Both the position numbers and the translations under genes were made by a program. Source: Bacteroidota bacterium (GTDB taxonomy: Bacteria > Bacteroidota > Ignavibacteria > Kryptoniales > JAKASW01). From it: DNA of 42,854 nt. This document shows, one piece after another, positions 4,987 to 42,854 of the stretch (position 1 is its first letter; each line of letters opens with the position of its first letter). The DNA lies in assembly GCA_021812985.1 (NCBI GenBank), contig JAKAMG010000018.1, positions 1 to 42,854 of the forward strand, written 5' to 3'. The notes beneath the pieces were generated by a model, which saw nothing but the letters and a program-made list of their open reading frames with translations, was not told the origin of the DNA and searched no databases.

Positions 4987-5964
4987 ATGGGACAGATAAA
5001 ATATAATTTGCCTCCAGATGAGGTGCTGGCGCCCGGACACTTCGCTTGTCCGGGTTGCGGCGGGACGCTTACGATGCGGTACGCACTCAAGGCGCTCGGG
5101 AGGAAAGTGGTTGTTGTGATACCGGCTTGCTGCTGGTCAGTCATCGACGGGCCGGTCCCTTATTCGGCGGCCGGGGTTCCGGTGTTCCACACCGCGTTTG
5201 AGACGGCGGCTTCGACCGCCAGCGGAATCAAGGCTGGGCTCGAGGCGCAGGGTGACCACGAGACCACGGTCGTCGCGTTCGCGGGCGACGGGGGGACTTT
5301 CGATATAGGCTTCCAGGCACTCTCCGGAGCGGCGGAAAGAAATGAGGATTTCATCTACATCTGCTACGACAACGAAGCCTACATGAACACAGGAATACAG
5401 CGAAGTTCGGCTACCCCTTTCGGTGCCTGGACCACTACCACGCCGGCAGGCTCATCGAAGTCTGAAAACAAGAAGAACATTGTCGAGATACTTGCGGCAC
5501 ACCGCATTCCTTATCTCGCGACCGCGAGCGTTGCGTACCCGGACGACATGATCGCGAAAATTCAGAAGGCCCGCGAAATTCGGGGTTTCAGGTTTATCCA
5601 TGTGTTCTCTCCTTGCCCTCCCGGCTGGAAGTTTGAGCCTGAAGATTCGATAAAAATATCCCGAATGGCTATCGAGAGCAGAGTATTCCCGCTTCTCGAG
5701 ATATTTAATGGAGTCGAATACCGACTTTCGCGGGAGCCAGCGGGGAGTCCGGTCCGGGATTATGTTAAGATGCAGGGAAGATTCCGCCATCTCAACGACG
5801 ATCAAATAGAGAAGATCCAGCAGAACGTGGACGAGGAGTGGCAGAGGTTGAATACCAAAATCCCGTCACCGCAAAAGGACTTCCGGAAATCGGGAAAGTC
5901 AACTCAGCCGGAGGATGCGTTGCGCGCGGCCTCAAAGAGAAAATCTGAAAAGACATCGAGGTAG
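4987..5964 (+). CDS. porB: Pyruvate/2-oxoacid:ferredoxin oxidoreductase, beta subunit
   Basis: A 325-residue beta subunit that binds the thiamine diphosphate phosphates and one [4Fe-4S] cluster. The four cluster cysteines are visible: CPGC near residue 19, PACCW near 48, and SPCPPGW near 211. The Mg-TPP motif GDGGTFDIG is near residue 100, with the YDNEAYMNTG segment that follows it in PorB proteins. The length is normal for PorB, with a charged, lysine-rich tail of about 40 residues rich in K, S and R that is probably disordered. It completes the enzyme with PorG, the ferredoxin fusion and PorA. A 99-base gap with a candidate small reading frame separates it from korA. Confidence 0.93.
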   Translation: MGQIKYNLPPDEVLAPGHFACPGCGGTLTMRYALKALGRKVVVVIPACCWSVIDGPVPYSAAGVPVFHTAFETAASTASGIKAGLEAQGDHETTVVAFAGDGGTFDIGFQALSGAAERNEDFIYICYDNEAYMNTGIQRSSATPFGAWTTTTPAGSSKSENKKNIVEILAAHRIPYLATASVAYPDDMIAKIQKAREIRGFRFIHVFSPCPPGWKFEPEDSIKISRMAIESRVFPLLEIFNGVEYRLSREPAGSPVRDYVKMQGRFRHLNDDQIEKIQQNVDEEWQRLNTKIPSPQKDFRKSGKSTQPEDALRAASKRKSEKTSR

Positions 5965-5968
5965 AAAG

Positions 5969-6067
5969 ATGACGGCGGAAAATATATCCGTGACATCGTC
6001 TTGCCCAGTGGATAAGAGAGGTCGAAGGCTCTTCGCCTTAATTGTTTGGCCCTCTACGTTTGAATGA
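5969..6067 (+). CDS. Possible 32-residue upstream reading frame before korA
   Basis: A frame of 32 codons starts with ATG at 5969, seven bases after a GAGG at 5958-5961, and its TGA stop overlaps the ATG at 6064 by four bases. The predicted peptide begins MTAENISVTSS and has no recognisable domain. The placement would couple translation of korA to that of porB. No homology can be judged, and the frame could be chance. Confidence 0.25.
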   Translation: MTAENISVTSSCPVDKRGRRLFALIVWPSTFE

Positions 6068-6078
6068 TCGGAGGATTT

Positions 6079-7212
6079 GTGTCTCGGTATAGAATACGGA
6101 ACGGTAATCAGATGATCGCGGAGGGGGCTATCGCGGCCGGATGCAGATTTTTTGCCGGTTATCCGATCACCCCGGCTTCAGGCATTTACAAGTTCATGAT
6201 TGACGAACTGCCGAAACGCGGGGATGTGGCATTGAGCTCGCCCGATGAGATCTCCGCGCTTGCGTTCTGCGTCGGTGCTTCTCAGCGCGGATTCAAGGCG
6301 ATGACCGCCACATCAGGCCCGGGCTTTTCTCTCATGGTCGAGACCCTCCAGTATGCCGTCATGACGGAGACACCCGTCGTGATTGCACTTGTCCAGCGTC
6401 TTGGTCCGAGCACCGGCGGCGCCACGCAGGGAGGACAGGGAGACGTACTCTTTGTTGGCAACTCGATAGCTGGCGGATACACCATTCCGGTCTTTTCCCC
6501 TTCATCGCCGATGGAGGCTTACGAACTTACGTTCCATGCATTTAACGTCGCGGAGAGACTCAGAACGCCGGTGATAGTCTTGACTGACAAAGAAGTCGCG
6601 ATGACATCGGAAAACATCGACTACTCAGCTCTTCCGCGTCAGGACCTGTATGATCGGAAGTATTTCGCGGGCGGAGACGGAAAGTCTTTCAAGACATACG
6701 GATTCGAAGAGCTTGGCGATGTCCCAGAGTTCGCGGCGATCGGCGGCGGGCAGAAGACCACTGTTACTGGGTCGGCCCACGACAAGCGAGGCCGCCTGCA
6801 AAAGAACTCGCCTGAAACCATAGAAGTCTTGAGGCATCTTCAGGAAAAAATATCTTCCAACGCGGCGAGCATAACCAGGCTCGCCGTTGATGCCCCCAAG
6901 AAGGGGGACACCGTTATTTTGAGCTACGGCATAAGCGCCAGGACGGCAATGGAAGCCGTCGGCGGACTGAGGTCGAGGGGAAAGAACGTGTCCCTTTGTA
7001 ACGTGCAGACCCTCTTTCCAATCCCTGAGAAGGAACTTGCCGAGGCCGCTCGCAGCGCAAAGAAGGTGGTCGTGGTCGAAGAGAATTTGACCGGCCTCTA
7101 CAGGAGCCAAGTCGCCCGCCTCTTCCCCGACAAAGAAGTGGTCGGCGTGAACGCGGTGGGACGCATGATCACGCCAGGCGAGATCGAAGAAACTGTTCTT
7201 TCGGAGAACTGA
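6079..7212 (+). CDS. korA: 2-oxoacid:ferredoxin oxidoreductase, alpha subunit (2-oxoglutarate type)
   Basis: About 377 residues of the KorA type. NGNQMIAEGAIAAGCRFFAG is followed by YPITPASGIYKF, the ATSGPGFSLMVE motif, and QRLGPSTGGATQGGQGDV, all diagnostic of 2-oxoglutarate/2-oxoacid:acceptor oxidoreductase alpha subunits. The C-terminal domain has TVILSYGISARTAMEAV and VVVVEENLTGLY. There is no N-terminal gamma domain; that domain is instead fused to the beta subunit encoded next. I chose GTG at 6079 because GGAGG lies at 6070-6074, directly upstream; an in-frame ATG at 6064 would add five residues but has no ribosome binding site of its own. 2-oxoglutarate is the probable substrate, with other 2-oxoacids possible. 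Confidence 0.9.
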   Translation: MSRYRIRNGNQMIAEGAIAAGCRFFAGYPITPASGIYKFMIDELPKRGDVALSSPDEISALAFCVGASQRGFKAMTATSGPGFSLMVETLQYAVMTETPVVIALVQRLGPSTGGATQGGQGDVLFVGNSIAGGYTIPVFSPSSPMEAYELTFHAFNVAERLRTPVIVLTDKEVAMTSENIDYSALPRQDLYDRKYFAGGDGKSFKTYGFEELGDVPEFAAIGGGQKTTVTGSAHDKRGRLQKNSPETIEVLRHLQEKISSNAASITRLAVDAPKKGDTVILSYGISARTAMEAVGGLRSRGKNVSLCNVQTLFPIPEKELAEAARSAKKVVVVEENLTGLYRSQVARLFPDKEVVGVNAVGRMITPGEIEETVLSEN

Positions 7213-7222
7213 GAGGAAAACT

Positions 7223-8563
7223 ATGAGCGAGGCCATGACACAGAACCCCGAGAGAATCCAGACCTATCTAAAAGTCACGGAGAAGTTCCCGTTCTGCAAG
7301 GGATGCGGGCATCACCACGTAACGGGGGCGATAAATTCGGCGCTCGTGAAACTCGGACTTGAGCCGGAACACGTAAACATCACAAGCGATATCGGCTGCG
7401 TCGGACTCATTGACGCCCTCTTTGAAGGCGTTCATTCGTTTCACACTACGCACGGAAGGTCGACAGCATTCGCTACCGGCGTTGAGATTGCCGATTCGGT
7501 CCTCGCAGACTCGAAGTTGAAGAACATAGTCGTCATAGGGGACGGCGGTGCCACGATCGGGCTCCTCCATCTCGTCAATGCGGCACAGATGAACGTCGAC
7601 GTCACCGTTATACTTTATAATAATTTTCTCTTTGGCATGACCGGCGGGCAGAATTCCGGTTTCTCCCCAGTCGGGTTTGTAACCGCGACTACGCCGAACG
7701 GGAACATAATCCCTCCCGTAGACATGATTTCGGTACTCAGAGGTGCGAATGCCTCTTTCCTCGCGCGCAAGACCGCGACAGACGCGGATCTTCCCGAGAC
7801 CATCGCCCAGGCAATCTCGCATCCGGGCTTCGCGCTTGTGGAGGTACTCGAACTCTGTCCGGAGTATGCTCTCCGTGGAAACGCAATTAGGGGAAACAAA
7901 CTTGCCGAGACGGCATCGGCTCAGGAACTCGGCGTCGTCGTCAGCAGGCGTGAGAGGATGGAATTTGGAGAGGCATACAGGTCGAAGTTTCCCCGGGTTG
8001 AGCAAGAGATCGGGGCGAGGGAGATAGAACCGCGCTATGAGAATTCTTTGGAGAAGAGATTCGGAATCGTTGTGGCAGGTACTGCGGGGGAGCGGGTCCA
8101 GTTCTCATCCCACCTTCTCGTGGAGGCGGCGGTCCTGTCCGGCGCCAACGCTACTCAGAAGAACGATAACCCAGTCACGCAGGGAACCGGATTTTCGCTG
8201 TCGGAAGTGGTCCTCTCCGGCAAACCGATATACTATACCGGAATAGACGTCCCGGATATTGTCGTTGCGGTGTCAGAAGATGGCGTTAGGGAACTCGCAT
8301 CAAAGGGGATATTCGAGAGGACGGGGAGCGACACGCTGATCGTCACAGATGAGAGCCTCGAGATTCCGAAATGTGAAGGGAGAATTGTAAAACAGCCCTT
8401 CAGACGGAAGTACATGCCGGGCGGGGCTGCCTTTGCCGGGATACTCACGGCGGTCAGCATGACGGGCATAATCCCCATGCTGGCGTTTCAGGATATCGCC
8501 GCCTCTCAGAAAAAATCCGAAGAACTGCTGTCAATAATAGAACACGTCCTAGGGGGAATATAG
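7223..8563 (+). CDS. korB: 2-oxoacid:ferredoxin oxidoreductase, beta-gamma fusion subunit
   Basis: A 446-residue protein, whereas a KorB alone is about 270-290. Residues 1 to about 260 are the beta subunit: cluster cysteines in FCKGCGHHH, DIGCVG and LELCPEY, the TPP motif GDGGATIG, and the FGMTGGQNS segment. From about residue 268 the sequence changes to a gamma-type domain starting GIVVAGTAGERVQFSSH and ending near the C-terminus with PGGAAFAGI. Together with KorA it would make a two-polypeptide enzyme with alpha, beta and gamma parts. The usual GRGGQG loop of the gamma domain is altered to GTAGERV. The start follows a GAGAGGAAA site, ten bases after the korA stop; the ferritin-like gene follows ten bases downstream. 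Confidence 0.9.
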   Translation: MSEAMTQNPERIQTYLKVTEKFPFCKGCGHHHVTGAINSALVKLGLEPEHVNITSDIGCVGLIDALFEGVHSFHTTHGRSTAFATGVEIADSVLADSKLKNIVVIGDGGATIGLLHLVNAAQMNVDVTVILYNNFLFGMTGGQNSGFSPVGFVTATTPNGNIIPPVDMISVLRGANASFLARKTATDADLPETIAQAISHPGFALVEVLELCPEYALRGNAIRGNKLAETASAQELGVVVSRRERMEFGEAYRSKFPRVEQEIGAREIEPRYENSLEKRFGIVVAGTAGERVQFSSHLLVEAAVLSGANATQKNDNPVTQGTGFSLSEVVLSGKPIYYTGIDVPDIVVAVSEDGVRELASKGIFERTGSDTLIVTDESLEIPKCEGRIVKQPFRRKYMPGGAAFAGILTAVSMTGIIPMLAFQDIAASQKKSEELLSIIEHVLGGI

Positions 8564-8573
8564 GGAGAAGATC

Positions 8574-8822
8574 ATGAGCGATGATGAGCGCGAAGTCAGG
8601 GAGACGCTGATCTCGATTCTGGAAGAAGCAATCGAGAGCGAGATCGAGTCGGAGGAGAAGTATCGTCACGCCGCGGGACTCGCCACAGACACGAGGATCA
8701 GAGACTTTTTCCTTTCGCTGGCCAAGATGGAGATGGAACACAAGGTTCAGTTGACCGCGCAGCTTGAGGAGCTGCGGGCCCAGATGATGATAGTCGGCGA
8801 AATGAATGATATGTTTATTTGA
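8574..8822 (+). CDS. Short rubrerythrin/ferritin-like protein (two-helix half)
   Basis: An 82-residue, strongly helical and acidic protein. It has two segments with the ferritin-like spacing: EEAIESEIESEEKYRHAA (about residues 17-34) and LAKMEMEHKVQLTAQ (about 49-63), giving one E...Y..H and one E..H pair. Rubrerythrins and ferritins carry four such helices and two such pairs, so this is half of a di-iron four-helix bundle and would need to dimerise to build a complete site. It has no rubredoxin domain and no CxxC. It is the last gene of the operon, ten bases after the korBC stop. A role in protecting the oxygen-sensitive oxidoreductases or storing iron for their clusters is inferred only from position. 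Confidence 0.75.
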   Translation: MSDDEREVRETLISILEEAIESEIESEEKYRHAAGLATDTRIRDFFLSLAKMEMEHKVQLTAQLEELRAQMMIVGEMNDMFI

Positions 8823-8855
8823 GGAGCGAGGTGGTGCGTCTCTCTCCGGCGGGTG

Positions 8856-8876
8856 GCTGCCTCTTAAGATGGCAGC
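8856..8876. terminator. Candidate hairpin between convergent genes
   Basis: GCTGCC (8856-8861) and GGCAGC (8871-8876) form a 6-bp stem with a 9-base loop, in the 66-base gap between the end of the ferritin-like gene and the end of the converging lipoprotein gene. No T-tract follows on either strand, so terminator function is uncertain. Confidence 0.3.
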
Positions 8877-8888
8877 GCGCTTGATCTC

Positions 8889-9293
8889 CTAGTTCTGTGG
8901 GGCCCCTTCTGCAATCCAGGTCTTCAAGCCGTTGATCTGGTTCTGATTCAGAAGTGATGTGAGCGCGGGGTAATGATAGAATTTTCCTTCAACATATTGG
9001 ATCAATATACTATTCTCCGGCTTCCCGGGGATCACCATCCCGGAAACTGAAGTCATAGTGCTCGACCATGAGGTGAAGCTCACCTTCGCGTCAGTGTTCA
9101 CGGCGCCATCGTCATGACACCCTGAGGTAATGCAATCCTGGTAGAAGAGCTGTTCCACGGTCGTGTAGTGCACGTTCGAGGAAGGGAATACCACCGGTGT
9201 GCCTGATCCCGGCGTAAATGAGTTCTTGCAGGAATCCAGCGCGACCGCGGCTGCGATGGCGAATACAGCGATGGCTAAGAGCGAAATTTTCAT
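8889..9293 (-). CDS. Lipoprotein with CX4CH cytochrome c-like motif
   Basis: 134 residues. A signal peptide with a hydrophobic run (SLLAIAVFAIAAAVA) ends in LDSC, a usable lipobox with C22 as the lipid-bearing residue. The mature part contains FYQDCITSGCHDDG, where CITSGCH is a CX4CH motif (the ordinary haem c motif is CX2CH), then VIPGKPENS and a C-terminal INGLKTWIAEGAPQN. This arrangement is shared with the small cytochrome-like lipoproteins of many Bacteroidota and Planctomycetes. The position where an MP pair often provides the distal methionine reads HYP here, so haem ligation is doubtful. It is probably exported and membrane-anchored. It is divergent from a second protein of the same design (9695-10108). 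Confidence 0.8.
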   Translation of the reverse strand: MKISLLAIAVFAIAAAVALDSCKNSFTPGSGTPVVFPSSNVHYTTVEQLFYQDCITSGCHDDGAVNTDAKVSFTSWSSTMTSVSGMVIPGKPENSILIQYVEGKFYHYPALTSLLNQNQINGLKTWIAEGAPQN

Positions 9294-9694
9294 TTGTGAA
9301 TTTTAAGATTATCTGGGTCTGAATCAATACCAAACAGAACAGTTCCCGCCGTCCTCGCTTCTTCTTCAAATCGCCTCGCTTCATTAAATTAAGGACATGA
9401 GGACGCTCGTTTTCTTCTTCGCGCTGAGTTTCTATACGGCCGTGACAAATATAGATCCACGGCCTGTCGAACCCGTCCCGATCGTCTATGTTATGCAGAG
9501 GAGGCGTTTGAATCTCCCTCGTCGAAAATGCTCTAACATGGCAAGAATAGGCATAGGCGAATAACTTCTCCCCCTCTCGTCGTGCCACCCGACGCCCGTC
9601 GATAGCTTCCACTACTTTTGAGGTATCCGTTTCCAGTTCCTGTTCGGAAACTTTCAGGCATGGCGAAGGCGTTATGTCTCGAAAAGGAAAAATC
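9294..9694. other. Intergenic region between two divergent lipoprotein genes
   Basis: A 401-base gap that should contain the divergent promoters of the two cytochrome-like lipoproteins. No clear -35/-10 pair stands out. It contains one small forward reading frame with a signal-like start (9397-9564). Confidence 0.5.
9397..9564 (+). CDS. Possible small exported peptide
   Basis: A 55-residue frame beginning MRTLVFFFALSFYTAV, which resembles a short signal or membrane segment, followed by a proline- and arginine-rich tail. AAGGA lies only one base before the ATG, so it is a poor ribosome binding site. No family is recognised. It may be chance in this gap between two divergent genes. Confidence 0.2.
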   Translation: MRTLVFFFALSFYTAVTNIDPRPVEPVPIVYVMQRRRLNLPRRKCSNMARIGIGE

Positions 9695-10108
9695 ATGAAG
9701 TATGCGCTGGTGGTTATGCTCGGACTTTCTGTCGCGGCCTGCTCCAAATCTTCGAGTACTTCAACTTCGCCGACGGGTCCCTCCGGGTCGGACACGACGA
9801 TAAGTTTCGCGAGCCAGGTCCAGCCGATTTTTAACGCCAGCTGTGCCGTTTCAGGATGCCACGTGGCGGGGGGATCGGCGCCGATGAGCCTCGAGGCGGG
9901 AAAGTCTTACTCACAGACTGTAAACGTCAGCAGCATCGAGCAGCCCGCTCTCGATCGCGTGACGCCTTTTAGTCCCGACAAGAGTTATCTGTACCTGAAA
10001 ATTACCGGTCAGGGAGGGACCAGGATGCCACTTGGAAGGGCGGCGCTCGGCAGCGCGGATGTCAACACGATTGAATCGTGGATCTCCCAGGGGGCGAAGA
10101 ACAACTGA
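9695..10108 (+). CDS. Lipoprotein with CX4CH cytochrome c-like motif and MP pair
   Basis: 137 residues from the ATG at 9695; an ATG at 9674 would add seven residues before the signal peptide. I chose 9695 because it is preceded by AAAAGGAAA and gives a compact lipoprotein signal MKYALVVMLGLSVAAC with C16 as the lipid site. A Ser/Thr/Pro-rich linker follows, then VQPIFNASCAVSGCHVAGG with a CX4CH motif, and further on GGTRMPLGRA, where the MP pair is placed as in small cytochromes that use methionine as distal ligand, and ESWISQGAKNN. The overall plan matches the divergent neighbour at 8889-9293, so the two look like a diverged pair. Likely an exported, membrane-anchored protein; redox function is inferred. 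Confidence 0.82.
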   Translation: MKYALVVMLGLSVAACSKSSSTSTSPTGPSGSDTTISFASQVQPIFNASCAVSGCHVAGGSAPMSLEAGKSYSQTVNVSSIEQPALDRVTPFSPDKSYLYLKITGQGGTRMPLGRAALGSADVNTIESWISQGAKNN

Positions 10109-10122
10109 ATACCGGTGCAAAC

Positions 10123-10151
10123 TTGTAAGCATCGCACCAATTTGTTAATAT
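10123..10151 (+). promoter_or_regulatory. Promoter of the fluoride riboswitch transcript
   Basis: TTGTAA (10123-10128) and TAATAT (10146-10151) are separated by exactly 17 bases. Transcription would begin near 10158, just before the riboswitch aptamer at 10161, which is the expected arrangement. Confidence 0.65.
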
Positions 10152-10160
10152 ATTTCGACT

Positions 10161-10249
10161 GGCGATGGAGTTCGCCAGGTTAAATAAGTTTCTCTAAAAG
10201 AGAATGATGACTCCTGTCGGCTTGTTAAATTGTCGGCAGGAGTTTTTTT
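10161..10249 (+). ncRNA. Fluoride (crcB motif) riboswitch with expression-platform terminator
   Basis: The aptamer begins with the hairpin GGCGATGGAGTTCGCC (10161-10176), followed by an AT-rich junction, a stem of TTCTC and GAGAA around TAAAA, and the characteristic TGATGACTCC (10205-10214). The loop bases GGAGT (10167-10171) can pair with ACTCC (10210-10214), the pseudoknot that closes around fluoride in this class. ACTCC is also the first part of the terminator stem (10210-10243), so ligand binding and termination compete: fluoride should favour read-through. The next genes are a fluoride channel and DUF190, which fits. Identified from the known consensus, not from a covariance search. Confidence 0.92.
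10210..10249 (+). terminator. Intrinsic terminator of the fluoride riboswitch
   Basis: ACTCCTGTCGGC and GTCGGCAGGAGT form a 12-bp stem with two G-U pairs and a 10-base loop, followed by seven T residues (10243-10249). The 5' arm overlaps the aptamer pseudoknot, so it works as the switch. Confidence 0.88.
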
Positions 10250-10292
10250 GTGTCATGACTGATTTGTTGAACAAAAACAGGCGTATTTATAG

Positions 10293-10664
10293 ATGAAGAT
10301 TTTTGTCATCTTTATAGGCGGTGGGATCGGCTCTGTGTTTAGGTATCTCATGTCTGGATGGGTGTACTCTTTTCTCGGGGCGGACTTCCCGTACGGCACG
10401 TTCTCGGTTAACATACTGGGAAGCTTCATAATAGGCTTCTTTCTTACTCTGGCGGAGGATAGGTTTCTCGTGAGCCCTGAGCTGAGGGCGTTCGTGGCAA
10501 TTGGGATCCTCGGCGGTTTTACCACGTTCTCCACGTTCACTTACGAGACGCTTGGGCTTTTCAAGGAAGGTTCGTTCTTCATTGGGGCAACCAACATACT
10601 GGCCTCGGTAGCCGTGGCGCTGATTGCCGCCTGGTTTGGTAATTTGCTTGGAAGACTGATATAG
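10293..10664 (+). CDS. crcB: Fluoride ion channel CrcB/FluC
   Basis: A 123-residue membrane protein with four predicted helices, the standard length of a Fluc fluoride channel, which exports F- as an antiparallel dimer. Family signatures are GGGIGSVFRYLMS at residues 9-21, the pore motif GTFSVNILGSFIIGF near 36-50 with its conserved asparagine, and GGFTTFSTFTYE near 75-86, the broken third helix with the phenylalanine and threonine/serine residues of the F- path. It lies 44 bases after the terminator of a fluoride riboswitch, which supports the assignment independently. Expected to be switched on by fluoride. The DUF190 gene begins ten bases after its stop. Confidence 0.96.
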   Translation: MKIFVIFIGGGIGSVFRYLMSGWVYSFLGADFPYGTFSVNILGSFIIGFFLTLAEDRFLVSPELRAFVAIGILGGFTTFSTFTYETLGLFKEGSFFIGATNILASVAVALIAAWFGNLLGRLI

Positions 10665-10674
10665 GAGGCAAAAT

Positions 10675-11025
10675 ATGAAATTGGAAGGGAAGGGCAAGCT
10701 TCTCAGAATTTTTATCGGCGAGGACGATCATCTCGAGAAGAGGCCGCTGTACCATGTCATCGTGGAAAAGGCTCGAGGGCTCGGCATGGCCGGTGCGACG
10801 GTTGTCAGGGGCGTGGAGAGTTTCGGGGCGGGGAGCATGATACACACCGCGAAGCTCCTCGAACTCAGCGAGGATCTCCCGATCGTCATAGAAGTCGTGG
10901 ATACCGAAGAGAAGGTGGACGCGTTTCTGCCGGCAGTGGAGGATATTTTCGAGAAAGCGGGATGCGGCGGCATGATCACGGAGGAAAAGGTCAACGTCAT
11001 CCACTACACTCACGGGAAGAGATAG
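10675..11025 (+). CDS. DUF190 protein (PII-like) linked to the fluoride channel
   Basis: A 116-residue soluble protein of the DUF190 family. Visible family features are LLRIFIGEDDHLEKRPLYHV near the N-terminus, the AGATVVRGVESFGAGS segment (about 39-54), and DLPIVIEVVDTEEKV. DUF190 proteins have a ferredoxin-like fold resembling PII signalling proteins and are frequently encoded beside crcB. The start has an ideal ribosome binding site (GGAGG, six bases before ATG). A regulatory role on the channel is plausible but not demonstrated as far as I know. It is under the same riboswitch. Its stop faces the converging oxidoreductase gene 99 bases away; no clear terminator is seen between them. Confidence 0.92.
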   Translation: MKLEGKGKLLRIFIGEDDHLEKRPLYHVIVEKARGLGMAGATVVRGVESFGAGSMIHTAKLLELSEDLPIVIEVVDTEEKVDAFLPAVEDIFEKAGCGGMITEEKVNVIHYTHGKR

Positions 11026-11124
11026 CGGTGCCGCGCTTCACGGAGAAAGACGGCTCTGAGCTGGACCGATCCGCGTTTCGACCGGCCCCCGTTCCATTCT
11101 GAATCTACTCCACTACTCGCCGCC

Positions 11125-12759
11125 TTACCATTGCCTCATGATCTCTCCGAAGCATTCCACTCCGCTGGCGAGAACACTGCCGTAGCCATGGCCCGGCTTT
11201 GTCCAGGCCCCCGCAAGATATAGATTTGAAATCGGAGTCTCGTGGGCGAGCCTGCTCGGCCCCGAATTGTCGACTGTCTGATCGAGCCCGTAGATTGCTC
11301 CACGATAGTTGCTCGTGTAGCGCACATTGGTCAGAGGGGTCCCGATCTCCTTCACCTCGATGGCCCCGGCAAGCCCGGGGAGGAGCGTCTTCTCTGCGTG
11401 GGCTATCAATGCATCTGCTATCCGCTCCTTTTCCTTGCGGTATGCTTCCTTGTTCCCCTTCAGGTAATCGGATTCGTATTCCTTCCACCTGTCATAACCC
11501 ATGAACGTTGTGATGTTGACAGTGTTTTTTCCGGGAGGGGAGTAGCCTTTGTAGATGTTGTCATAAAGTGTCATGGCAAAGCCGCGGTTCTCGACGTCAC
11601 CTCTCACGGCCGCGAGATACCCCTCCTCCATGTCGTATCCTGTCTCATAAAAAATCTCGGAGTCCTTGAGCCCGCTCTTTCCAACGATGTCTTCCTTCAA
11701 GCCGAGAAAGACCTGGAAGGACGAAAGGCTGACGCTGTAGTGGTCCAGTTGCTCGAGGTATGATTTCAGGTAATCATCCGAGTTTGTCATGCTGCGGAAT
11801 GTTTCGTATGGATTAGCGTTCGAGACGACGACCCTGGCCTTGAACTCGTCGCCGCTCGCGCTCCTTACACCGTATGCCGTGTGATCCTTGGTGAGTATTT
11901 TCGCCACGCGTGAATTGAGCTCGACCTTGCCGCCGCGGTCTACTATGAATTTCACGATCGCGTCGCTTATGTCCTGCGACCTCCCGCGCGGGTAATATCC
12001 ACCATGAGTGAGGTACCCGAGGGCCGGCATCGCGTAATAGAAACTGACCAGCCTGGAAGGGGGGAGGCCGTAGTAGACCCACTGCGCCGAAATGATTGCC
12101 CGGAGACGCGCATCCTTCACTCTCGCGTCAAGCATGTCTTTCCATGTACGGTTGTAGAGCCTGGAGAGGAAGGGAAAATCGACGGGGAATCTCTGCATGT
12201 CGATCTGTCCGTTTGCCTCGGAAAGCTTCTGAATGTCGTTAGCAAGACCGCGCATGTCGTCGAAGAGTCCGAGAATCTCTCCTTTCTCGTCTGGGAAATA
12301 CGCAACCAGGGTGTCGATGTACTCGCTCAAGTTTCTTTGAGGCACGGTGATGTCGTAGTCCGGGAATATGACGCGGTAGAGACTCGGGTGCGGGACGAAC
12401 TCAACTTCCGTTATTTCAGGGAAACCGGGGATGAGATTATGCAACCCGTTTCGTTCTCCGACACTCGTGGAATGGAGCGATACATCGAATGTGAATCCTC
12501 CCGGGCGATTGAACGCCGTGGCATATCCGCCGGGCTTGTCGTGCTGTTCCAGGACAAGCACCTTGAAGTTCTGCCTCGCGAAAGCTGCGGCACAGCTCAG
12601 TCCCCCGAGCCCTGATCCGATCACCACGGCATCATACTCGTTGTCCGATGTGTGCTTCGCGATGCCTTTCGGAAGGGATTTCCAGTCGAGCGCGAGCATT
12701 CCGACTCCGCCGAGTACGTACTTGAGGAAGTCCCTCCTTTCGATTCCTCGTCTGCTCAT
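11125..12759 (-). CDS. Tat-exported CrtI-like FAD-dependent oxidoreductase
   Basis: 544 residues from the ATG at 12759, preceded by GGAGG seven bases upstream; an upstream ATG at 12819 is less likely. The N-terminus MSRRGIERRDFLKYVLGGVG has a twin-arginine signal (RRDFLK) and a hydrophobic stretch. Then comes the FAD motif DAVVIGSGLGGLSCA (about 44-58), EQHDKPGGYATAF, and at the C-terminus LYLAGAWTKPGHGYGSVLASG, the FAD-binding end of phytoene desaturase, carotenoid isomerase and retinol saturase-type enzymes. The family usually works on isoprenoid chains at membranes. Folded export with FAD bound suggests a periplasmic lipid or polyene substrate; the actual reaction is unknown. A promoter and structured leader lie upstream. 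Confidence 0.88.
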   Translation of the reverse strand: MSRRGIERRDFLKYVLGGVGMLALDWKSLPKGIAKHTSDNEYDAVVIGSGLGGLSCAAAFARQNFKVLVLEQHDKPGGYATAFNRPGGFTFDVSLHSTSVGERNGLHNLIPGFPEITEVEFVPHPSLYRVIFPDYDITVPQRNLSEYIDTLVAYFPDEKGEILGLFDDMRGLANDIQKLSEANGQIDMQRFPVDFPFLSRLYNRTWKDMLDARVKDARLRAIISAQWVYYGLPPSRLVSFYYAMPALGYLTHGGYYPRGRSQDISDAIVKFIVDRGGKVELNSRVAKILTKDHTAYGVRSASGDEFKARVVVSNANPYETFRSMTNSDDYLKSYLEQLDHYSVSLSSFQVFLGLKEDIVGKSGLKDSEIFYETGYDMEEGYLAAVRGDVENRGFAMTLYDNIYKGYSPPGKNTVNITTFMGYDRWKEYESDYLKGNKEAYRKEKERIADALIAHAEKTLLPGLAGAIEVKEIGTPLTNVRYTSNYRGAIYGLDQTVDNSGPSRLAHETPISNLYLAGAWTKPGHGYGSVLASGVECFGEIMRQW

Positions 12760-35930: not shown

Positions 35931-36038
35931 AGAGAAGGTTCGTTAAAGGTTTAAAACTGACGGTGCTGTAGACCTTTGACGAATTTTCTGATTGCCGAAT
36001 TACGGTGCAAAAAGGTCTGCACGGAATTCGGCTTTTTT
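35931..36038 (+). ncRNA. Structured porU leader: two hairpins with terminator (riboswitch-like candidate)
   Basis: Hairpin 1: arms 35939-35950 and 35972-35983 pair over 12 bp with one G-U, extended by AGAGAA (35931-35936) with TTTTCT (35984-35989) around a GG bulge. Hairpin 2: GCCGAATT (35994-36001) with AATTCGGC (36025-36032) and inner GTGCA/TGCAC, followed by six T. AGACCTTT (35970-35977) in hairpin 1 can instead pair with AAAGGTCT (36011-36018) in the loop and 3' arm of hairpin 2, so the structures can compete. The T-tract ends six bases before the chosen porU ATG. I do not recognise a known riboswitch class. Confidence 0.55.
35994..36038 (+). terminator. Intrinsic terminator in the porU leader
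   Basis: An 8-bp stem (GCCGAATT with AATTCGGC) plus an inner 5-bp stem, then six T (36033-36038). It may end transcription within the leader or close the upstream DUF962 transcript. Confidence 0.75.
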
Positions 36039-36043
36039 ATTTA

Positions 36044-39000
36044 ATGAGGTTGATGACTAAAGGTGCTTTCACGGCAGGGGCTGTTCTCCTGCTTCTCTAT
36101 TCGGTCGTATTTGCGGGTACGGGACAGTCGGTCGTTGTTCAGTCGCTCGGCGGAAACTCTATAACGATTTCTGTATCCCCAGATTCGCTGGGCGCCGACA
36201 CGTTGACGGTGAATGGCGAGAAATGCCTCGAGCTGAACTACCGTGGCGCAGTTGCTGAAGTGGGGGGCGAGGGGGGCTACGTGAGGAGCTTCATACCGGT
36301 TATGGTGGGGGTCTTCTCGCCGCGCGTCCAGGTCCAGGTCCTGCAGGCAGACTACGCGACAGTTCCCATGCTCGCACCGCAGCGCAATCCCAGCTATGCC
36401 ACGGAAACGAAACCGCAGACCGTGTCCGAATTTGTCTCGTATGACGGCCCGTTCATTCAGAGGAGGCATCTTGTCGCGCGACTTCGCGTTTACCCGTACA
36501 GCTACGACAGCCGGACAGGAATGTACAAGCTTCTGAGGAGGATCGTGGTACAGGTTACTTCCTCGGGGAGCAGTGTTCAGACCCCCGAGAGTTACGCCGA
36601 TCCTCTTCTGTCGGAATCGCTCGTGAACTACGATCAGGTAAAGAACGCCGTGGCTGGCGAACCTTCGAAACTGCTGAAGACGACCGCGTCCAGTGTTCTT
36701 GCGCAGGGGCACTGGTACAAGCTTGCTGTTTATTCCAGCGGCATATACAAGCTGACCTATTCACAACTGAAGGCCGCAGGCGTTCCCATAGACAGCGTCG
36801 ATATGAGCACGATAAGGATATTTAACAACGGCGGGACGGAGCTTCCCGAGGACCCGAACGCGTCACGGGTCAACGACCTGGAGGAGAACGCGATATATGT
36901 GAGCGGTGCGGGAAAGTTCGGCGCGAACGATTACTTACTCTTTTACGGCAAATCCACGAGGGGTTGGACGTACGACCCGGGCCATAAGACCTATTCACAC
37001 TTCATAAACAATTATTCCGACACCAACTATTATTTCATGACCTGGGGAGGAGTCCAGGGGAAACGAATGGCCGTCGAGCAGGGTGCTGGTGCCGCCAGCT
37101 ACTACCGCCCGCAGAGTTTCACATGCGGCATCTTCCAGGACTCTTCCATGTTCAACCTACTCGGGTCAGGCCAGGACTGGTACGGGCCTGAGCTTCAGCC
37201 CCCCAGCCAGGGGGTGGACAACTCGACGTATCTCTGGCAGAACAAGCTGTACGGTCTCAACACCTCCGGGAACATCACTTACCGCGTGAGGCTTATATCT
37301 AGAAGCGACCTCGGGACATCAAACTATTTTTCGATTAGCGAAAACTCAACCGGAACCGCGCTCGGCGTTATCCCTGCAGGCACAGTCGATATGTCCAGTT
37401 TCTACAGCGACATTGGATATTATGCCTACCCGCTTTCGCCGTACACCGCGACAGGCCCCGGTAATCTTCCTGACGACAGGAGCATCTTCAGGGTTTCTTA
37501 CAGCGCGACGTCAACATCTTCCGTGGGGTACATAGACTGGATGGAGCTTCTTTACCAGCGCTACTTCCAATCGCTTGGAGACGTGCTCGATTTCTACGGC
37601 CCCGATACTACCTCGAATGTATATTACGCCGTCAGTGGCTTTTCGAGCAACAACGTGGATGTCTTTGACGTGACAGATTTCGCGAATGCCGCCATGGTCA
37701 CGCCAGATTCCGTGAGCAACGGCACAGCTTACTTCGGTAGTCGGTCCACTGCCGGCTCAAGCAGGGAATACTACGCCGTCGGTGATAAGGGGTATCTCAC
37801 CGTTTCTTCGATCTCCGCGGTGCAGAATTCGAACCTGCACGGAGAATTGTCGGGAGCGGACCTCATCATAGTCACCGCGCCTGACTTCCTGACTCAGGCT
37901 GACGAGCTTGCGAGTTGGAAGGAAAGCAATGACGGTCTGAAAAGTATTGTCGTCACAACGACGCAGATCTACGATGAGTTCGGCTGCGGCATACCCGATC
38001 CCACGGCCATAAGAGATTACCTGAAGTACGCCTACACGAACGACCAGCAGTTACCGTCATATGTCCTGCTTTTCGGATCCGGCACTTATGACTACAAAGG
38101 CATAGTCGCGAAGAACAGCGAGTTTGTACCGCCATATGAGTCGCAGGAGTCACTATATCAGACGTATACATATTGCAGCGATGACTATTACGTGCAATTC
38201 ACGGCTCCCCTTATGCAGACACCTATATCCATGGCTATTGGCAGACTCCCTGCAAGAACGACGGGAGACGCAGACGCGATGGTGAGCAAAATCAAGAGCT
38301 ACGAGAGCTCGCCCGATTACGGGAGCTGGAGAAACCTGATTACGTTCATTGGGGACCAGGGCCTGCAAACAAAGGGGATCGATGACGGTTCACTCCACAC
38401 TGACTCGGCGGACCTCCTTGCCCAGAATTATACACCCGCTTCGTTTGACAAACGGAAGATCTATCTGATTCTTTACCCAGTCATAAATACGACGCAGGGG
38501 AGGCGCATACCTCAAGCGGCGGCCGATATCGTTAACCAGGTCAATGATGGGACCCTCATAGTCAACTTCGTGGGGCATGGCGCTCCAAATGTTTGGTCCT
38601 ACACCCACGTCTTTGAGAACGCGGTAACGATACCTCAGCTAACTAACAAGAACCGGCTCACTCTTTTTGTGGCAGCAACCTGTGACTTCTCCCGTTATGA
38701 TGACCCGTCCCAGTACAGCGGCGGAGAACTCCTCGTCGATTCGCAGCAAGGGGGGGCTATCGGCGTTGTGAGCGCGACACGGGTGGTTTACGCGACGGAT
38801 AACGAGACCATCAACAGCGGCTTCTTTCAGAATCTACTTTACGCGCGCGATTCTCAGCACAGGCCCCCCGCCATCGGCGAAGCACTGTTCGAGACGAAGC
38901 AGGCTGACTACCAGTTACATACATATATAAAGTATAACTACCTCGGTGACCCAACTGTCCGGATTGGGATGCCACTCTATGACGCGAGTGTAGACAGCCT

Positions 39001-40042
39001 CAACGGAAAATCGCTGAGCCAAACCGCACATATCCGCGCCCTCGACAAGCTTGATATCAAAGGCTCCGTCTACCAGTCGAACGGCTCGCAATGGAGCAAT
39101 CTCTCGAGTACAGGCCTCGTGACCGTTTATGATTCAGACAAGCCGGTCTACGTGCCCGCCTGGGACAGGACGTATCTCTTCCAGGGATCTATACTTTTCA
39201 GAGGTCAGGTCTCAGTAAAGGAAGGTAAGTTCGACGCACAGATGGTAATCCCCTCTGACATATCATACAGCAACAGCAACGGTAAGGTAGAGCTTTATTT
39301 CCAGGGAGGGGGAGCGGACGGTCTCGGCTACACTCGAAACGTTATCGTCGGCGGTACTGACACAAACGTGACCAACAATCACATCGCTCCTCAGATTAGC
39401 ATCTACTTCGATTCTAGGAATTTCAAGGATGGAGACATCGTCTCTTCCAACCCGACAATGATTGTGGACCTTCACGCGGCGAACGGTCTGAACCTTTCGG
39501 ACGCGGCGGTCGGCCACGGTCTGGAAGCGATCTTCGACGGTGGTCAGTCGGTCAATCTTGCCCCCTACTACACTGGCAAGCTCGACTCTTACCAGGATGG
39601 CACCGTGACTTATCCCGTGACAGCTGACCTGTCATACGGACAACACAGCGTAACCGTCCAGGCGTTCGACGTCTTTAATAATCCAGCAGAAGCGAGCGCA
39701 AGCTTTGATGTTGAGTCGGACACCACGCTCTCGATAACGGATGTTTATAATTATCCCGATCCGTTCAGGTCAGGAACCGCGTTCACGTTCAGAAGAACCG
39801 CCGCGGGTGGGGCTGGAGAACCGATCAACGTGACGATAAAAGTGTTTACTATCGGAGGAAGGCTGATAAAGACGATAAAGGCGTACGGCATAACCGATAC
39901 CTTCGTGAAGGTAGACTGGGACGGGCTGGACGACGAGGGAGACAGACTTTCTAACGGAGTATATCTCTACAAGGTGATAGCCACGACTATCGACGGCACG
40001 TACACGAGCGAAGCCCTCGGGAAGATGGCAGTCGTGAGATGA
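36044..40042 (+). CDS. porU: Type IX secretion system sortase PorU (C25 peptidase family)
   Basis: 1332 residues from the ATG at 36044; ATG 36053 or GTG 36005 are alternatives and none has a good ribosome binding site. MRLMTKGAFTAGAVLLLLYSV with FA-G after it is a signal peptide. The gingipain-like peptidase core has H845 in VNFVGHGAPNVW and C880 in AATCDFSRYDDPSQYSGGE, so the catalytic pair is intact. The last 100 residues form a FlgD-Ig-like/sorting-type domain (VYNYPDPFRSGTAFTF, then SNGVYLYKVIAT). PorU is the outer-membrane sortase that cuts off the C-terminal signal of cargo and attaches it to anionic lipid. PorV, its outer-membrane partner, is encoded next. P. gingivalis PorU is about 1160 residues, so this one is somewhat longer. 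Confidence 0.93.
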   Translation: MRLMTKGAFTAGAVLLLLYSVVFAGTGQSVVVQSLGGNSITISVSPDSLGADTLTVNGEKCLELNYRGAVAEVGGEGGYVRSFIPVMVGVFSPRVQVQVLQADYATVPMLAPQRNPSYATETKPQTVSEFVSYDGPFIQRRHLVARLRVYPYSYDSRTGMYKLLRRIVVQVTSSGSSVQTPESYADPLLSESLVNYDQVKNAVAGEPSKLLKTTASSVLAQGHWYKLAVYSSGIYKLTYSQLKAAGVPIDSVDMSTIRIFNNGGTELPEDPNASRVNDLEENAIYVSGAGKFGANDYLLFYGKSTRGWTYDPGHKTYSHFINNYSDTNYYFMTWGGVQGKRMAVEQGAGAASYYRPQSFTCGIFQDSSMFNLLGSGQDWYGPELQPPSQGVDNSTYLWQNKLYGLNTSGNITYRVRLISRSDLGTSNYFSISENSTGTALGVIPAGTVDMSSFYSDIGYYAYPLSPYTATGPGNLPDDRSIFRVSYSATSTSSVGYIDWMELLYQRYFQSLGDVLDFYGPDTTSNVYYAVSGFSSNNVDVFDVTDFANAAMVTPDSVSNGTAYFGSRSTAGSSREYYAVGDKGYLTVSSISAVQNSNLHGELSGADLIIVTAPDFLTQADELASWKESNDGLKSIVVTTTQIYDEFGCGIPDPTAIRDYLKYAYTNDQQLPSYVLLFGSGTYDYKGIVAKNSEFVPPYESQESLYQTYTYCSDDYYVQFTAPLMQTPISMAIGRLPARTTGDADAMVSKIKSYESSPDYGSWRNLITFIGDQGLQTKGIDDGSLHTDSADLLAQNYTPASFDKRKIYLILYPVINTTQGRRIPQAAADIVNQVNDGTLIVNFVGHGAPNVWSYTHVFENAVTIPQLTNKNRLTLFVAATCDFSRYDDPSQYSGGELLVDSQQGGAIGVVSATRVVYATDNETINSGFFQNLLYARDSQHRPPAIGEALFETKQADYQLHTYIKYNYLGDPTVRIGMPLYDASVDSLNGKSLSQTAHIRALDKLDIKGSVYQSNGSQWSNLSSTGLVTVYDSDKPVYVPAWDRTYLFQGSILFRGQVSVKEGKFDAQMVIPSDISYSNSNGKVELYFQGGGADGLGYTRNVIVGGTDTNVTNNHIAPQISIYFDSRNFKDGDIVSSNPTMIVDLHAANGLNLSDAAVGHGLEAIFDGGQSVNLAPYYTGKLDSYQDGTVTYPVTADLSYGQHSVTVQAFDVFNNPAEASASFDVESDTTLSITDVYNYPDPFRSGTAFTFRRTAAGGAGEPINVTIKVFTIGGRLIKTIKAYGITDTFVKVDWDGLDDEGDRLSNGVYLYKVIATTIDGTYTSEALGKMAVVR

Positions 40043-40106: not shown

Positions 40107-41297
40107 ATGAAGACAGCATTAAGTGCGGCAGTCATTGCAGTTTCACTGCTCGCTTTCGCTCCCGGAGTGTTCGCCCAGGGCGAGACCGCCGTCCCGTTCC
40201 TGTTAATAGCGCCGAACGCGCGCGCAGGCGGCATGGGTGAGACCGGAACAGGTTTGGCAGACGACGGCAGCGCAGTCTTCTGGAACCCCGGCGGGCTCGC
40301 GTTTCTGCGCGGTGACAAGATTAGCCTTACGCACGCACCGTGGTTGCCTGAGTTCAGCTCTGACCTCAGCTACGATTTCCTGAGCTACACGCACTACCTC
40401 GACGGATGGGACGGAAGTCTCGGCGCAAGCGTCACCTTCTTCAACCTCGGTACTTTTGTCCACACGTCGTCGATAGCGCCTGACCCGAATAACCCAAACA
40501 GCAATGTGCTGGGGACATGGCACGCCTATGAAATAGCCGTCACCGTGGGTTACGGCACGCAGGTCTCCGACGGGCTTGGTCTCGGTGCTAACTTCAGATA
40601 TATAAGAAGCGAACTCGCTCCTTTCGGTACCGAGCAGGAGGTGGGATCGGGAATTGCGAATGACGTCAGCTTCGACCTGGGACTTTTATATCGACCTCAC
40701 GTCTTCAACATACCGCTCCTGGGCGACCTCGGCGACCGGCTTGGTTTGGGCGTGGACCTCAGCAATCTCGGTCCGAGCCTGTATTACATCGACCAGGCAC
40801 AGGCCGATCCTCTCCCGACAAACCTGAGAGTCGGACTCGCGCTCCATGTTCTCAAGAGCCAGTACAACAATATGTATCTGACGCTGGACCTGAGCAGGAC
40901 GCTTGTCCGTGTCAACACTGACTCAACGATCGGTTCGATAAACCCGAACGCGCAGGGCGGACCGGACACTACCTGGAACTACACAAACGAGGTCGATCCA
41001 CTTCCGAAGTCGCTCATCACGACGTGGGGTGACGGCAGCGGTCTGAAGCGCATAATCATAAGCGCGGGCGCCGAATACTGGTACGGAAGCCCGAGACTTA
41101 TCGCGCTCAGGATGGGTTACTATAAGGAGAATCCGAATTTCGGAGGGAGAAACTTCCTGACTTTCGGCGCGGGCATCCGGTACGATATATACGGTTTTGA
41201 CTTTAGCTATATTTCGACCTTCGATCAGAATAACCCGCTTTCCAACCAGCTCAGATTTTCCCTTTCTCTAAACCTGGGCGGGACAAACGAGCTTTAG
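40107..41297 (+). CDS. porV: Type IX secretion system outer-membrane protein PorV
   Basis: 396 residues with a signal peptide ending near VFAQGE. The conserved PorV/UPF0164 N-terminus is APNARAGGMGETGTGLADDG followed by FWNPGGLAFL (about 35-65). The remainder is a beta-barrel of alternating segments, ending in the aromatic-hydrophobic strand LRFSLSLNLGG, like FadL-type porins. PorV carries cargo from the secretion channel to the PorU sortase and is needed for anchoring. A GAGGAG site precedes the ATG. The gene order porU-porV is characteristic of type IX systems. Confidence 0.95.
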   Translation: MKTALSAAVIAVSLLAFAPGVFAQGETAVPFLLIAPNARAGGMGETGTGLADDGSAVFWNPGGLAFLRGDKISLTHAPWLPEFSSDLSYDFLSYTHYLDGWDGSLGASVTFFNLGTFVHTSSIAPDPNNPNSNVLGTWHAYEIAVTVGYGTQVSDGLGLGANFRYIRSELAPFGTEQEVGSGIANDVSFDLGLLYRPHVFNIPLLGDLGDRLGLGVDLSNLGPSLYYIDQAQADPLPTNLRVGLALHVLKSQYNNMYLTLDLSRTLVRVNTDSTIGSINPNAQGGPDTTWNYTNEVDPLPKSLITTWGDGSGLKRIIISAGAEYWYGSPRLIALRMGYYKENPNFGGRNFLTFGAGIRYDIYGFDFSYISTFDQNNPLSNQLRFSLSLNLGGTNEL

Positions 41298-41322: not shown

Positions 41323-42854
41323 ATGCTTGCCGTAGTATCGGCAGTGTCCATTGGATCGCTCGGACAAGCATCCTCCGCTCTGGCGTCAGGCGTTCCGCAC
41401 GAACCTCAGCTGAGCCATCCGCTCTCGATAGTACAGAGAACCTCGCCGAGGATATCTCTGGCCAACGGGAATGTCAATGTCCTGGCCATAATGGTGCAGT
41501 TCCAGACAGATCAGGACAGCCTTACGAGCGGGAACGGGCATTTCATGCTGTCGAACGACACGGGGCTGGACGCGCCGCCACACGACAAGGGGTATTTCGA
41601 GAATCATCTCCTCTTCCTTCAGAACTATTTCAGGAAGGTTTCCGGCGGAAAGCTGAATATCAGCTACACGGTCCTTGATTCCGTCATCACGCTCCCACAC
41701 ACCATGAAGTATTATTCCCCTCCGAAGAAGGGGGTGACGAACCCGGACAATCTCGGCCTCCTGTACCAGGATGCCTGGCACACCGCCGACTCCATCTATG
41801 GCGGTAGTTTCGATTTCAGTCAGTATCAATGTTTCGTTATCTTCCACGCGGGAGCGGGAAGGGACATAGATTTCTCCACCGCTCTTGGATACGATCCTCT
41901 CCCCTACAACCTCCCATCGGTATATCTGAACCTCGCCTCACTGCAGTCGATGTTTGATTCCCCCGGCTACCAGGGGGTGGTTGTCGACGGCGGGAAGTTC
42001 CGCATTCCCAACTCGATTATCATGCCGGAGAGCGAAAGATATCTCGTCATGGATTCGCCGCAGGACACCGTGATCAACCTGACACTCGGGTCGAACGGGC
42101 TCCTCGCCGCAAGCTTCGGTAGCTTTCTCGGACTTCCTGATCTCTTTGACACGCAGACCGGCGTGACGGGAATTGGAAGGTTCGGACTGATGGATGGCCA
42201 GGCGATATTCGCCTATGGAGGCCTTTTCCCTCCGGAGCCGTCGGCGTGGGAAAAGACTTATCTCGGCTGGGTAACCCCCGTAGAGGTTTCCCCTCCCACA
42301 GCCACGCAATACACACTCTACGCGAACGAGACGGGGAAGTATTCGGTACTCAAGGTCCCTGTCAGCGGAAGTGAATACTTCCTGATCGAAAACAGACAGC
42401 GTGACGCACACCAAGACGGCGAAAGAATCACGACTTATTACCAGGGGAGCTATCACACCACAACAATCGGCCTCGCCTACGACACGAGTTATTTTGACGG
42501 TACTCAAATATCTAACATCAACGGGGTGGTGACGGACGCGGATGAGTTCGACTGGGCGCTCCCCGAACCTGACTACCCCCCTGACCGGGCGACTTTCCAC
42601 GGCGGAATACTTATATGGCACATCGACCAGAACGTCATTGACGCCAATCTCGGCAGCAACACTGTCAACGCGAACCCCGTTCACAGAGGGGTGGCGGTGA
42701 TGGAAGCGCATGGCGCAAACGAGATAGGGAGGCTCATCGCCGATTTCACCGGACAGCTTTACTATTACGACGGTTCAGCCTTCGATTTCTGGTTCAAGGG
42801 GAATCCGATCCCGTCATACGGCAACGCGTTTACACCGAACTCCCTTCCGAATTC
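41323..42854 (+). CDS. M6-peptidase-like protein lacking the zinc motif (pseudopeptidase; 3' end cut)
   Basis: At least 510 codons from the ATG at 41323, eight bases after AGGA; the frame is open to the window edge. MLAVVSAVSIGSLGQASSAL with ASG is a signal peptide. The body follows the M6 (immune inhibitor A-like) family: VNVLAIMVQFQTDQ, HDKGYFENHLLFLQNYFRKV, VIFHAGAGRDIDF, GLPDLFDTQTG, GRFGLMDGQ, YFLIENRQ and GILIWHIDQNVID. Where the family has HEFGH, this protein has A263-S264-F-G-S267: both histidines and the glutamate are gone. No other HExxH occurs in the visible part. It is therefore probably proteolytically inactive, and may serve binding or secretion. It is placed 25 bases after porV. 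Confidence 0.85.
   Translation, partial: MLAVVSAVSIGSLGQASSALASGVPHEPQLSHPLSIVQRTSPRISLANGNVNVLAIMVQFQTDQDSLTSGNGHFMLSNDTGLDAPPHDKGYFENHLLFLQNYFRKVSGGKLNISYTVLDSVITLPHTMKYYSPPKKGVTNPDNLGLLYQDAWHTADSIYGGSFDFSQYQCFVIFHAGAGRDIDFSTALGYDPLPYNLPSVYLNLASLQSMFDSPGYQGVVVDGGKFRIPNSIIMPESERYLVMDSPQDTVINLTLGSNGLLAASFGSFLGLPDLFDTQTGVTGIGRFGLMDGQAIFAYGGLFPPEPSAWEKTYLGWVTPVEVSPPTATQYTLYANETGKYSVLKVPVSGSEYFLIENRQRDAHQDGERITTYYQGSYHTTTIGLAYDTSYFDGTQISNINGVVTDADEFDWALPEPDYPPDRATFHGGILIWHIDQNVIDANLGSNTVNANPVHRGVAVMEAHGANEIGRLIADFTGQLYYYDGSAFDFWFKGNPIPSYGNAFTPNSLPN

Follow-up and report, generated by a model that had tools for sequence, protein, structure and literature searches.

An M6-like pseudopeptidase encoded beside porV is separable from PorU and PorZ and is a probable non-catalytic component or partner of type IX secretion

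The analysed window, a stretch of 42,854 nucleotides from a member of the Bacteroidota, closes with three consecutive genes on the forward strand. The first, porU (36005..40042, +), encodes the type IX sortase, a C25 peptidase with a sorting domain (CTD), and reaches 924 bits against NF033707 (cut-off 420) and 311 bits against PF01364. It is followed by porV (40107..41297, +) for the outer-membrane shuttle or channel protein, which exceeds the cut-offs of PF19572 (94.7 bits) and NF033709 (277 bits) and lies slightly below that of the PorV equivalog NF033710 (237.8 bits, cut-off 250). The third gene (41323..42852, +) encodes a signal peptide and an M6-like pseudopeptidase domain; on the basis of the family model NF052323, an AlphaFold model and a match to the solved structure of InhA2 it is referred to here as M6i. 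Its reading frame comprises 510 codons and is still open where the window stops, and the end of the window marks a scaffold gap of 100 N inside the gene, not the gene terminus. The remainder of M6i lies beyond the gap (L002:2024-2866, positions 43023-43865 of the contig) and encodes a propeller of FG-GAP repeats followed by a type A sorting domain (type A CTD). The first-pass annotation had allowed that the missing part might hold a HExxH motif; the continuation across the gap contains none. Full-length relatives mostly comprise 980-1130 codons and consist of signal peptide, M6-like domain, beta-propeller and CTD. The next gene of the operon (L002:2863-6114, contig G000:C50) encodes a TolB-like PD40 propeller protein with a HEFTH motif, weakly assigned to Peptidase_MA_2, and an end that is probably an outer-membrane barrel. 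This gene is kept after M6i in most relatives, so that an intact HExxH adjoins a dead one. The genome also encodes SprA and, on another contig (L130, G000:C29), a second porU-like and porV-like pair (ORFs 6702-11546 and 5695-6801), which resembles NCBIfam PorU2 (NF052324) and PorV2 (NF052325), both below cut-off.

The observation that ASFGS takes the place of HExGH in the ORF at 41323-42852(+) while LGLPD is intact is confirmed. ASFGS covers residues 263-267 (42109..42123, +), LGLPDLFD follows in register (residues 269-276; 42127..42150, +), and a Met-turn-like FGLMDG is found at residues 287-292 (42181..42198, +). In the zinc motif HExxHxxGxxD the Asp serves as third ligand (PMC3890501). M6i reads ASFGSFLGLPD here, with the Asp alone left, and motif and register together place Asp273 at the third-ligand position. 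Among about 130 relatives across the phylum, including the orthologues near porV, we detected neither a zinc His nor a catalytic Glu in register, and HExxH is absent from 41 proteins of this genome and its relatives; the sole HExxH among relatives is an off-register HEMAH in genome G215. In an alignment of 119 proteins, which takes in 79 named-contig loci (Kryptonia, Ignavibacteria, Melioribacter and others), the replaced columns are occupied by A/S/G/N, S/N/T/M and S/N/T. Asp273 is Asp in 119/119 of these proteins, a conservation biased by the scan pattern GLPDLF[DN]TxT, which partly selects those columns; it is also Asp in 20/20 divergent members and in 24/24 M6 proteins with the zinc motif. 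The 41 proteins and the 20 divergent members were found without this pattern, and the latter, picked for divergence across the phylum (down to 358 bits against the family model), likewise lack HExxH. The Met of the Met-turn is kept in 93% of M6i proteins and in 24/24 zinc-motif M6 proteins, and Asp291 is specific to M6i (98%, compared with 0% of the latter). A general decay of M6 proteins in this genome was considered and rejected, as a zinc-motif M6-like protein with a CTD is encoded elsewhere (L129:2711-6163(-), G000:C3) and retains HELGH..GWPD.

Sequence scores place M6i below the curated cut-offs for M6 peptidases: Pfam PF05547 gives 16.5 bits (cut-off 22) and TIGR03296 a significant 71.4 bits (cut-off 110.8), and a phmmer search with the single M6i sequence against the PDB sequences returned no M6 entry. 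Modelled with AlphaFold, the M6i domain of the window (pLDDT 88.1, pTM 0.92) has as its best match among solved structures Bacillus InhA2 (4yu5/4yu6; Z 20.9, 3.3 A over 356 residues), with the runner-up at a Z of about 10. The model therefore makes membership in M6 clear and assigns the domain the M6 (immune inhibitor A) fold. With the full-length model the list of PDB matches consisted of propellers throughout and the M6 domain was unreadable there. Zinc-motif M6 proteins of related genomes align in register with M6i (HEFGH..GLPDLYD), and 24 of them share with it Tyr131, Gly177, Gly270, Pro272, Asp273, Glu356 and other positions. M6i thus has in common with InhA2 the fold, GLPD, the Met of the Met-turn and a large part of the framework, but differs in lacking HExxH, in its own invariants (Asn258; Phe275, Tyr in M6; Asp291, Ala in M6; Trp432), in a short conserved insertion around residues 83-92, which M6 proteins with the zinc motif do not have, and in the attached propeller and CTD. 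The view that the protein follows the M6 family almost throughout was consequently too strong at the level of sequence. The zinc-motif paralogues have a longer stretch ahead of the first core strand than M6i, and this suggests that M6i is made without a propeptide.

The family itself has already been named: NCBIfam NF052323 is the "T9SS-dependent M6-like inactivated metalloprotease" (T9SSA_dep_M6i), and since this model is curated with "inactivated" in its name, the core of our finding is known at the level of annotation. Both features of NF052323, an M6-like domain that lacks the catalytic residues and a CTD of type A, are present in M6i. The half of the gene ahead of the gap reaches 595.8 bits and the part behind it 195.3 bits; the cut-off of 600 bits applies to the whole protein, which is split by the 100 N so that no single stretch can reach it, and it is exceeded in 10/12 genomes of the same genus, including most full-length relatives there. 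The model supplies the name alone, whereas the linkage to porV and the independence of PorU and PorZ come from the present analysis. Our literature search found no paper describing the M6i family and no description of a phylum-wide porV linkage of M6i or of its separability from PorU and PorZ.

Substitution rates indicate strong purifying selection on the M6 domain. In the three closest pairs dN/dS is 0.02-0.05 in the M6 region and 0.13-0.16 in the propeller, values that are rough since dS is high; among the PorU-less genomes described below dS is saturated and yields no value. Conservation amounts to 2.6 bits per column in the M6 core, 2.45 in the CTD and 1.5 in the propeller. Together with the absence of the motif, the low dN/dS supports the earlier proposal of an inactive M6 scaffold under selection, and none of the computational checks suggested with that proposal refuted it.

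Both a linkage to T9SS genes and a T9SS signal, the CTD, are present for M6i. In all relatives with a sufficiently long contig porV is the immediate upstream neighbour of M6i, and the order porU-porV-M6i is found in nearly all relatives with testable contigs; in the family of locus L229 porU is inverted and porV-M6i is unchanged. Downstream of M6i there is usually a gene for a HExxH-containing TolB-like propeller protein and, in many cases, one for a DUF5683 protein. Three loci of family f11 (L120, L125, L128) carry porU-porV followed directly by a DUF5683-like gene, without M6i or the propeller gene, and a 90% complete genome of the same genus (L126, G006:C8) has porU without porV or M6i alongside; the related genome G001 contains a second porU (G001:C31). 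Plasmids yielded a single, distant match to M6i and phages none. Across 97 loci the tree distances of M6i correlate with those of PorU (r 0.91) and PorV (r 0.85), compared with 0.19 at most in a label-shuffled control, a correlation which shows common descent of the operon and does not in itself prove interaction. Of the connection to type IX secretion proposed in the first-pass annotation, the phylum-wide synteny, the CTD of M6i and the tree distances matching those of PorU speak in favour; a joint tie to porU and porV did not stand, since PorU proved separable, and the structural or cargo-recognition role suggested there is at this stage a hypothesis.

In a single draw of 296 phylum genomes that were at least 90% complete, M6i is present in 114 and PorU in 196; 105 genomes encode both, 9 M6i without PorU, 91 PorU without M6i, and 91 neither. 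The nine M6i-encoding genomes without PorU are 97-100% complete and all belong to family f35. A permissive search for PorU in them returned only CTD-type matches lacking the C25 domain, and PorZ was not found above cut-off in any of the nine, so that the occurrence of M6i is not restricted to genomes with PorU and PorZ. Among seven sampled f35 relatives with PorU, six encode PorZ (407-438 bits) and in the seventh (G204) PorU is not accompanied by a clear PorZ. All nine PorU-less genomes have a complete SprA and retain porV and M6i, the latter again without a zinc motif in register. At seven of the nine loci (L278-L280, L282, L284-L286) the genes lying immediately upstream of porV equal in size those flanking porU in PorU-encoding relatives, and comparison of one pair, G109 and G136, identified a thiolase as the neighbouring gene in each; porU is therefore missing from an otherwise similar locus. 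A tblastn search for a porU remnant at these loci gave matches solely in the CTD of M6i. As the genomes are related, the losses of porU in f35 may represent one event or few. Conversely, families f8, f11, f15 and f16 have porU-porV without M6i and f5 has porU without it, which indicates that the T9SS functions without M6i. Given these PorU-encoding genomes on the one hand and the nine PorU-less keepers on the other, M6i is obligatory neither to the sortase arm nor to the T9SS in general. Its separability from PorU and PorZ, read from gene content, is what is new here, and as porV is its constant neighbour, PorV and not the sortase is the likely partner of M6i.

In Porphyromonas gingivalis, the sortase PorU is tethered by PorV, which also binds newly secreted substrates (PMC5562754). 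PorU and PorZ retain their CTDs, which carry an extra hairpin (PMC11285876). The family profile of the M6i CTD matches PorU among the PDB sequences with an E-value of 4e-4 and PorZ weakly (E 0.04), which is weak evidence as few CTD structures have been solved; the modelled M6i CTD has seven strands and no clear extra hairpin. PorU resembles M6i as a CTD-bearing T9SS protein encoded beside porV, with weakly similar CTDs, but its catalytic domain, that of a C25 cysteine peptidase, is unrelated, and it has been lost independently of M6i. PorZ likewise combines a beta-propeller part with a CTD (PF21544, NF052228; PMC11285876), but has no M6 domain, coexists with M6i, and was lost along with PorU where M6i persists. 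M6i as a substitute for PorZ was rejected, as PorZ occurs in genomes with and without M6i alike.

In the main rival to a role in secretion, M6i would be cargo dedicated to the surface, for example an adhesin or a protein that binds polymers or peptides, co-transcribed and co-inherited with its shuttle PorV, and would use the T9SS without contributing to secretion; we regard this as a real possibility, though a doubtful one. Such a cargo would possess a type A CTD of the ordinary kind and an FG-GAP propeller, as M6i does, type B substrates are often linked with a PorP/SprF-like shuttle of their own (PMC12618676), and both the many T9SS genomes that dispense with M6i and its survival without PorU fit. 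However, all type A CTDs rely on PorV (PMC12618676), which leaves no obvious reason why one cargo should have stayed beside porV throughout the radiation, M6i sits at the porV locus wherever it could be read, and the M6 core appears conserved above what would be expected for an exposed adhesin. The strict form of the earlier proposal, in which M6i presents cargo to the sortase as one subunit of the PorU/PorZ attachment complex, would account for the order porU-porV-M6i in most genomes and for the close agreement of the PorU and M6i trees; given nine genomes that lack PorU and PorZ and yet retain intact M6i, and the coexistence of M6i with PorZ, which shows that it does not substitute for PorZ, we consider this form unlikely.

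Two further explanations concern the active site itself. Catalysis by other residues, for instance at a rearranged metal site of Asp273 and new ligands, could draw on the retention of Asp273, of the Met in the Met-turn and of many M6 positions and on the invariant Asn258 and Asp291, but is highly improbable, as both His ligands and the general-base Glu have given way to small residues in all relatives and NCBIfam names the family inactivated. That ASFGS is a sequencing error or marks a recent pseudogene, as the scaffold gap within the gene might suggest, is refuted for practical purposes by relatives from across the phylum, which carry the same replacement in open frames of some 1000 codons and are subject to purifying selection.

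M6i is thus a probable component or partner of type IX secretion that has no enzymatic role. More specifically, it may be a non-catalytic surface partner of PorV, separate from the PorU/PorZ arm, a reading we hold about as probable as its negation. That every relative has lost the catalytic residues but conserved the M6 framework counts in its favour; against it, the same synteny would be expected of a cargo co-transcribed with its shuttle, and the CTD lacks a clear hairpin. As a PorV partner, M6i would be made with a signal peptide and pass the outer membrane by means of its own type A CTD, which it would then retain, and PorV would hold it at the cell surface, by analogy with PorU in P. gingivalis. 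The M6 fold, having lost catalysis and kept the framework of the cleft, would most likely bind a polypeptide, either secreted cargo or a partner, and the variable propeller could offer a second binding surface; M6i would act with PorV and not with the PorU/PorZ sortase arm. A bolder version, which we put forward tentatively and think more probably wrong than right, sees M6i as a structural T9SS component, a PorV-tethered pseudopeptidase that takes or holds type A cargo on the cell surface by a PorU-independent route and has become the main surface handler where PorU and PorZ have been lost.

Most of what is understood about the T9SS comes from Porphyromonas and Flavobacterium. The existence of a third CTD protein linked to porV, encoded by 114/296 sampled genomes of the phylum and outlasting the sortase, would mean that cargo is handled differently after translocation in much of the phylum, and the PorU-less genomes with M6i provide a clean natural contrast for the role of PorV without the sortase.
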